The notes under the pieces are model-generated. The model was not told where the DNA came from and did no database searches. It saw only the letters and a list, made by a program, of their open reading frames with translations. A DNA stretch of 64,000 nt from Hyphomicrobium sp. (GTDB lineage: Bacteria > Pseudomonadota > Alphaproteobacteria > Rhizobiales > Hyphomicrobiaceae). The position numbers and the translations under genes are program-made. Of this stretch, positions 4,907 through 64,000 are shown piece after piece. The stretch is from assembly GCA_019751875.1 (NCBI GenBank), contig JAIEMV010000002.1, positions 545,799 through 609,798 on the forward strand, in the 5' to 3' direction. The first letter of the stretch is position 1; every line of letters starts with the position of its first letter.

Positions 4907-4973
4907 GAAAGGGCGGCTGCGGCCTCTCCGACCTAGGGTATGGCGAAACCGCGCAGGGAGATTTTAGTTGCCG

Positions 4974-5061
4974 GTTCCGACTCCCCGTGCGGGGAGCCGG
5001 CCGGAACTTGGTTTTGTTTGTCGCTTCCGACTCCCTTGCCGGGGAGCCGGCCGGAAGCGAC
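4974..5061. repeat. Two adjacent GACTCC/GGAGCCGGCC structured repeats (family A) with different arms
   Basis: Copy 1 (4974-5007) has the core GA-CTCCCCG-TG-CGGGGAG-CCGGCC with only 5-bp outer arms (GTTCC/GGAAC). Copy 2 (5020-5061) has the same design with 9-bp perfect arms GTCGCTTCC/GGAAGCGAC. The two arms differ, so this is not a simple tandem duplication. They lie between the 3' end of smc and the atp promoter. Each left half carries GACTC, a CcrM (GANTC) site. Confidence 0.85.
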
Positions 5062-10842: not shown

Positions 10843-10912
10843 GCGCAAGGCGACTCCGCTTGCGCGGAGCCGGCCGCCTTGCGCGAATTATGCGGAGCCG
10901 GCCGCCTTGCGC
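10843..10912. repeat. Family A structured repeat, one full and one half copy
   Basis: The full copy (10843-10884) has 9-bp arms GCGCAAGGC/GCCTTGCGC around GA-CTCCGC-TTGC-GCGGAG-CCGGCC. After 7 nt a right half only (GCGGAG-CCGGCC-GCCTTGCGC, 10892-10912) repeats with the same arm, so the second copy has lost its left side. It lies between the divergent starts of the DUF721 gene and mutY, where it cannot be a shared terminator. Carries one GACTC site. Confidence 0.85.
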
Positions 10913-55163: not shown

Positions 55164-55183
55164 GCGCTCGCTCCACTGTGATG

Positions 55184-55440
55184 GCACATGGCGACTCCAC
55201 TGCGTGGAGCCGGCCGCCATGTGCGATGGGAACTGTGATGGCACATGGCGACTCCACTCCGTGGAGCCGGCCGCCATGTGCGATGGGAACTGTGATGGCC
55301 CATGGCGACTCTAACTCCGTGGAGCCGGCCGCCATGTGCGAGGGAACTGAAATGGCACATGGCGACTCCACTCCGTGGAGCCGGCCGCCATGTGCGAGGG
55401 AACTGAAATGGCACATGGCGACTCCATGGGGTCACCATGC
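55184..55440. repeat. Array of five family A structured repeats
   Basis: Copies start at 55184, 55241, 55298, 55355 and 55411. Copies 1, 2 and 4 have perfect 9-bp arms GCACATGGC/GCCATGTGC around GA-CTCCAC..GTGGAG-CCGGCC. Copy 3 carries substitutions and an extra base (CTCTAACTCC), and copy 5 keeps only the left half. Spacers are 16 nt (GATGGGAACTGTGATG) between copies 1-3 and 15 nt (GAGGGAACTGAAATG) between copies 3-5. All five left halves keep GACTC. The array lies in the leader of the MFS gene. Confidence 0.92.
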
Positions 55441-55449
55441 GCGATGGGA

Positions 55450-58324: not shown

Positions 58325-58460
58325 TCGCGACAGCCGCGCGCAGAACTGGTTGGTCCACATTCGGCAAGCCGGTGTGGAGCTCTCTGGTCCACACTCGGCA
58401 AGCCGGTGTGGAGTCTCTCTGGTCCACACTCGGCAAGCCGGTGTGGAGCTGTCGCGACAG
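58325..58460. repeat. Array of three family B hairpins inside a long inverted repeat
   Basis: Three 25-nt hairpins start at 58354, 58388 and 58423: TCCACAC-T-CGGC-AA-GCCG-GTGTGGA (copy 1 has one base change). Spacing is 34-35 nt. The array is enclosed by TCGCGACAGC (58325-58334) and its reverse complement GCTGTCGCGA (58448-58457); the right arm is part of the palindrome CTGTCGCGACAG. It lies between divergent lgt and ubiK, just upstream of the ubiK ribosome binding site. Confidence 0.85.
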
Positions 58461-63830: not shown

Positions 63831-64000
63831 GGCGCGCTGCGACTCTGTTTCAGGTGGCGCGCTGCGACTCCGCTGTCGCGGAGCCGGCCGCAGCGCGCGG
63901 GGGTTCAGGTGGCGCGCTGCGATTCCGCTGTTGCGGAGCCGGCCGCAGCGCGCGGGGGTTCAGGTGGCGCGTTGCGACTCCGCTGTTGCGGAGCCGGCCG
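63831..64000. repeat. Family A repeat array, three copies plus a left half, runs off the window
   Basis: A left half (63832-63847), then copies at 63857-63898 and 63912-63953 with perfect arms GCGCGCTGC/GCAGCGCGC, and a third from 63967 (arm GCGCGTTGC) cut by the window end. Unit length is 55 bp with the 13-nt spacer GGGGGTTCAGGTG. Copy 2 has GATTCC in place of GACTCC, which still contains GANTC. It lies upstream of the L,D-transpeptidase gene. Confidence 0.9.

Follow-up and report, generated by a model that had tools for sequence, protein, structure and literature searches.

REP-like palindromes are among the commonest repeats of bacteria, and how those that lack a RAYT transposase spread is an open question. 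The GTAG REPs and REPINs are short hairpins with an internal loop, present in many dispersed copies that lie mostly downstream of genes (PMC3733652, PMC3116915, PMC6006769), and most of the genomes that carry them have few or no head-tail dimers (PMC3733652). CGTC REPs, which include RPE-4 and RPE-6 of Rickettsia conorii, are common in alphaproteobacteria, have stems of 8-9 bp and intragenic copies, and have no known dedicated transposase; REPs inside uvrA and other repair genes have been described as well (PMC3733652). Rickettsia palindromic elements (RPE), about 150 bp long, are inserted in frame in protein-coding genes (PMC10969869). The repetitive hairpin elements of mitochondria, for example the RHE of sponges, look like tiny mobile hairpins for which no enzyme is known, and have conserved stems and variable loops (PMC2800124).

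The element described here was found in a window of 64,000 nucleotides of Hyphomicrobium sp., the whole stretch of DNA that was analysed, and belongs to a family that resembles each of these systems in part. It has the internal loop, the many dispersed copies and the position downstream of genes of GTAG REPs, and the alphaproteobacterial host, stem length and intragenic copies of CGTC REPs. With RPE it shares the in-frame insertion, here in ileS and uvrA, but it is only some 53 nt long and lies mostly outside genes. It is as small and mobile-looking as the sponge RHE and likewise has no known enzyme, whereas in the Hyphomicrobium family it is the outer stems that vary, around a conserved core. 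Unlike GTAG REPs the family has no GTAG tag enriched at its foot and no Y1/RAYT gene in the window genome, and head-to-tail arrays are common in it. Compared with CGTC REPs it has no CGTC enrichment, a different core, variable arms and a T-rich leader. The stem differs by locus, whereas ordinary REP families have constant stems, a distinction that the sequence-only reading of the window had drawn and that is supported. Recognition of integron attC sites depends on the structure of a folded single strand and on its bulged bases, the stem sequence being variable and the strand choice fixed; these sites serve as a working analogy only, and no gene cassettes were seen with the Hyphomicrobium element.

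The family is thus REP-like in behaviour and lies outside both described tagged superfamilies, since GTAG and CGTC are not enriched, the window genome has no Y1_Tnp gene and Y1 genes show no link to copy number. What is distinctive is the combination of a paired stem that varies by locus around an invariant core, head-to-tail arrays and a strong replication-strand bias. No prior description of the family was found in the open-access papers that were searched. The earlier statement that no described element has such properties was too strong, as the placement, including an intragenic copy in uvrA, is shared with GTAG- and CGTC-tagged REPs (PMC3733652). The behaviour of the element has a precedent because CGTC REPs without a known transposase and REPs in uvrA have been described.

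In the window the core GACTCC-N-GGAGCCGGCC has 8 exact matches at four loci (4.98, 10.85, 55.2 and 63.9 kb), against 0.00 expected by chance (100 shuffles). The interval 55175-55426 is a real tandem array in which three hairpins are near-intact, one copy is degenerate and the fifth is truncated. It lies on the 5' side of a gene for an MFS transporter (- strand), which is divergent from a TetR gene (+). The features are as follows.

4970..5011, + strand: copy with poor arms (6/9 pairs), GCCGGTTCC/GGAACTTGG
5020..5061, + strand: copy with arms GTCGCTTCC/GGAAGCGAC, which are also found here in the sister species
10843..10884, + strand: copy with arms GCGCAAGGC/GCCTTGCGC; the sister species has GCGTGAGGC
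55175..55426, + strand: tandem array, period about 57 nt, 4.4 copies
55184..55224, + strand: array hairpin unit 1, arms GCACATGGC/GCCATGTGC, stem CTCCAC/GTGGAG
55241..55281, + strand: array hairpin unit 2, arms as in unit 1
55298..55339, + strand: array hairpin unit 3, degenerate core (GACTCTAACTCCG...), left arm GCCCATGGC
55355..55395, + strand: array hairpin unit 4, arms as in unit 1
55411..55442, + strand: array unit 5, truncated, with left arm, GACTCC and then a partial right arm
63857..63898, + strand: arms GCGCGCTGC/GCAGCGCGC; this copy opens an array that runs to the window end (contig end)
63967..64000, + strand: array member cut by the window and contig end; contig C3 begins inside a similar array

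A right-half remnant follows the copy at 10843..10884 at positions 10894-10912. The constant core with paired, locus-varying arms at four loci that had been read from the window is therefore real, and so is the co-variation of the inner stem. Exact complementarity of the arms at each locus holds for the best copies, which pair at 9/9 positions, but not for the copy at 4979 (6/9) or the degenerate third unit of the 55-kb array. Local tandem amplification, also proposed before, is supported. The assembly of the window genome breaks inside element arrays at the end of contig C1 (the window end) and at the starts of C3 and C19, for which reason C1 and C3 probably adjoin. At 58351-58450 lies a separate tandem repeat, with a 35-nt unit, 2.9 copies and a CCACAC/GTGTGG inverted repeat.

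The hairpin unit measures 41-42 nt. Its arms are 9 bp long and are followed inwards by the fixed GA/CCGGCC interior loop, the CTCCNN/NNGGAG stem and a loop of 3-4 nt; constancy of the core is partly by construction because copies were selected by it. Together with a T-rich leader of the pattern TTTT-NN-TT/TG the element amounts to about 53 nt and can be written as T-rich leader, then 5'-N9-GA-CTCCNN-(3-4 nt)-NNGGAG-CCGGCC-N9'. The design read earlier from the window contained the hairpin core and the arms but missed the leader. As single-stranded DNA both strands of the 55-kb unit fold, with z scores of -3.3 (+ strand) and -4.9 (- strand). The - strand gives the more stable fold (-17 vs -14 kcal/mol), and the strands are thus not equivalent. 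A known RNA family was rejected as the identity of the element: Rfam gave 0 matches in the window at the gathering threshold, and the array matched only microRNA models below threshold. The T tract is not part of an intrinsic terminator, as its frequency is about equal for either direction of the upstream gene (0.69 vs 0.66). This independence of direction, together with its absence at an alternative site that immediately follows a stop codon, indicates that the tract belongs to the element.

The window genome (3.72 Mb) contains 92 exact cores, and a reversed control pattern had 0 matches in it. A covariance-model search, which the sequence-only reading had proposed for the genome and close relatives, yielded 136 matches, and 133 in the sister genome (G001), where 82 exact cores are present. 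Exact copies occur in 52 of 103 Hyphomicrobiaceae genomes and 14 of 25 genera, at 0 to 92 per genome. Among 249 genomes drawn from the order, one genome of another family carries a single copy. In a scan of named genomes the matches listed fall almost only in Hyphomicrobium and Hyphomicrobiaceae, the species tally being a lower bound (at least the species counted); a match in Actinokineospora, with 2/9 arm pairs, is probably due to chance.

Pairing of the arms is maintained across loci. In 55 copies from many loci 98.4% of the arm cells are paired, compared with 32-55% in slid controls, double-sided changes occur at 8 of the 9 arm pairs, and the covariation score is 0.578 vs 0.120 for shuffled and 0.03-0.124 for slid arms. 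Co-variation of the arms thus extends to other genomic copies. The arms had been thought unrelated between loci, which is not borne out: the four arms on which that view was based fit a family consensus. In 121 copies, all picked for a minimum of 8 of 9 arm pairs, G occupies position 1 in 88% and C occupies position 9 in 99%, while positions 2-4 are nearly always G or C. The 142 perfect copies contain 63 distinct arm sequences, the commonest being GCGCCTTCC, where about 107 would be expected if positions were independent, and for 55 of these 63 a one-step neighbour is present.

A RAYT/Y1 transposase was rejected as the driver of the family. The window genome has 0 genes for Y1_Tnp (PF01797), and in the 14 of 102 family genomes where the domain is present it bears no relation to copy number, so that the RAYT-like enzyme tracking copy number that had been anticipated was not found. 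No element was seen in the fetched flanks of five Y1 genes (G001, G055, G095, G096). In 334 copies GTAG is not enriched at the 5' foot (0.6% vs 1.5% in the control), GTGG is found there in 11.1% vs 7.2%, and CGTC is not enriched at the feet (1.5%/3.3% vs 4.8-6.6%). Other palindromes, GTCATCCCGG...CCGGGATGAC, lie near elements at L242/L087 (G001 C13) and look like CGTC-type REPs.

In two genomes the orientation of the element follows replication. In the window genome 59 of 64 loci are on the locally G-rich, replication-leading strand (p=9e-13), as are 49 of 55 in the sister genome (p=2e-9), and on contig C1 of the window genome the element strand flips together with the skew (-0.094 to +0.089). 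In other species, for which 8-kb loci were used, the bias is weaker (102 vs 56). Neighbouring genes do not set the strand: for 27 of 54 copies the upstream gene is on the same strand, so that orientation is independent of the adjacent gene. In sequence the G-rich strand corresponds to the lagging-strand template. This template is the substrate of IS200/IS605 transposition (PMC6006769), and the strand asymmetry of the Hyphomicrobium family fits the lagging-strand-template processing known for IS200/IS605 relatives.

A different pattern was found in the genus g11 (G049 C1, G051 C3, G066 C1; L248-L287, L292-L311), where dif candidates were found and the skew is clear in one dif-antipode half and near zero in the other. 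In both halves the elements stay on one absolute strand (38 of 41 loci in G051, 19 of 20 in G066 and 18 of 21 in G049), and a model in which the strand switches at dif fits no better than chance. The present direction of replication does not explain the strand in g11, because one strand is kept where the skew is near zero. An old large inversion or a moved origin, with a skew that has since relaxed, would explain the pattern and is a candidate account; a parS search to locate the origins of g11 gave no matches. Absolute chromosome strand as a general rule, suggested by g11, was dropped, as in the window and sister genomes the strand follows the local skew.

In view of these results we consider, with a probability of about 0.6, that the elements form a REP-like family that is new and has no tag, that a putative enzyme spreads them as single-stranded hairpins, and that the arms diverge in place while their pairing is kept. 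In such a mechanism the element would spread as single-stranded DNA on the lagging-strand template, where it would fold into its hairpin, and a putative enzyme at replication forks would recognise the fixed asymmetric core of the folded strand. Tandem arrays could then grow by slippage. The arms would serve as stem only, so that any paired sequence would be tolerated and the arms would drift. Pairing may be restored either because stable stems are selected or because one arm is copied from the other.

This last possibility can be extended to a mechanism in which one arm primes or templates the other during copying, so that new copies are born with perfect arms and mutations become paired. It retains the fold-back idea of the sequence-only reading, with the donor arm instead of the target as template. 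Many singletons indeed have perfect arms (88 of 177 pair at 9/9 positions, with interior mismatches at 3-6% per position). G/T wobbles are rare and not commoner than other mismatches, and there is thus no visible stock of wobble intermediates; G-C to C-G flips outnumber the changes that are possible through G-T wobble. In addition, arm differences within arrays look mostly one-sided by eye, while those between sites are paired. However, much the same would be seen if stable stems were under selection, some of the flips are due to a one-base shift of a GCGC motif, and no new copy with a known donor was caught. Renewal by fold-back is an unlikely explanation. A fuller version, in which the element is a mobile hairpin with a core read by a single-strand-specific enzyme at forks and an outer stem rebuilt from one arm at each copying, appears rather unlikely.

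Extragenic copies lie near gene 3' ends and far from 5' ends. In the window genome the elements are mainly extragenic, with 7 of 67 clusters inside predicted genes; overall about a tenth to a quarter of the clusters are inside predicted genes, as called by a simple codon-score gene finder. Two in-frame cases were read in detail. In ileS of the window genome (L036:6624-6780) three units in frame add 48 residues exactly between the equivalents of residues 663 and 664 in an isoleucyl-tRNA synthetase of solved structure, an insert that is missing in another genus, and uvrA of the window genome (L216:3010-3051) contains one in-frame copy. The peptide encoded by the element in IleRS is AASDSAGAEPAGRGVKYDN-like and occurs three times; essential or repair proteins (IleRS, UvrA) thus carry in-frame element-encoded peptides. 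As a separate observation, an RcGTA-like gene transfer agent or prophage cluster at L278 (G051 C3:2103000-2122999), with genes for terminase, portal, S78 protease, capsid, connector, DUF2460 and Gp84, holds about 15 elements with different arms, and elements are found near the same RcGTA-like genes in other genomes (L044, L087/L242, L094, L104, L149, L153, L154, L169).

Placement near gene 3' ends, the sharing of sites across species and the finding that some copies, though only some, come directly after real intrinsic terminators would suit old, static hairpins that are under selection at gene ends and whose stems evolve by ordinary compensatory changes. Their role could be in DNA or mRNA, such as protection of 3' ends or binding of nucleoid proteins or gyrase. 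This explanation is doubtful in view of the copy number, which by the covariance model ranges from 0 to over 130 among relatives, and of the in-frame copies in ileS and uvrA. Moreover, the strand follows replication and not the adjacent gene, which a role in mRNA does not predict.

Comparison of the window and sister genomes, in which 23 site pairs were placed and flanks have roughly 72-90% identity, showed that 16 of the 23 sites are occupied on the same strand, a fraction that is biased upward because the sister stretches were fetched around its own elements. Identical arms are present at 5 of the 16 occupied shared sites (0.81 under permutation, P=0.0002). On average the arms differ at 1.94 of 9 positions, vs 3.33 after permutation. 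At the 5020 site of the window both genomes have GTCGCTTCC, at 10843 the sister has GCGTGAGGC vs GCGCAAGGC, and at the 55-kb site it has GCGCCCGGC and GCGCCATCC vs GCACATGGC. In a further case differing arms, GCCTCACCC vs GCAGTTTCC, come after nearly the same upstream flank, and at L050 the element is inverted in the sister genome, beside the apparent 3' end of a tRNA or tmRNA gene. Shared sites with the same or pair-changed arms indicate that the elements are inherited and that the arms change while paired.

A recent insertion with a clean empty site was not found, the nearest comparisons being about 75-93% identical, and no target-site duplication, which with terminal inverted repeats marks a MITE, was seen at these approximate alternative sites. 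No matching arm is present in the counterparts of copies that directly follow a stop codon (L109, L165; L278:13083), and the counterpart of L109/L165 lacks the T leader too. The matching arm is also missing at the alternative sites of L276 and of ileS, for which the counterpart comes from another genus. Only at L169, the counterpart of L278:6617, is there a stretch, TTTGATT-GGCGCTTC, that is close to the left-arm sequence; it may be the remnant of a deleted copy, as the locus has several elements. Native uvrA sequences (TTTGTTCGCGCC) are similar to the left end of the element. The original proposal, that arms are made by fold-back synthesis from target DNA at each insertion, would account for arms that vary by locus yet are paired, for the left-arm-like stretch at L169 and for the similarity in native uvrA, but is highly improbable given the family-wide consensus and one-step network of the arms, the arms at shared sites that are related more closely than chance, and the other alternative sites, which have no arm and at L109/L165 no T tract either.

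The Hyphomicrobium family cleanly separates an invariant asymmetric core from a stem that is held only by pairing. The strand of an element could record past replication direction, because it follows replication in two genomes and is kept in g11 where the skew has vanished. With its in-frame copies in ileS and uvrA the element also alters essential proteins.
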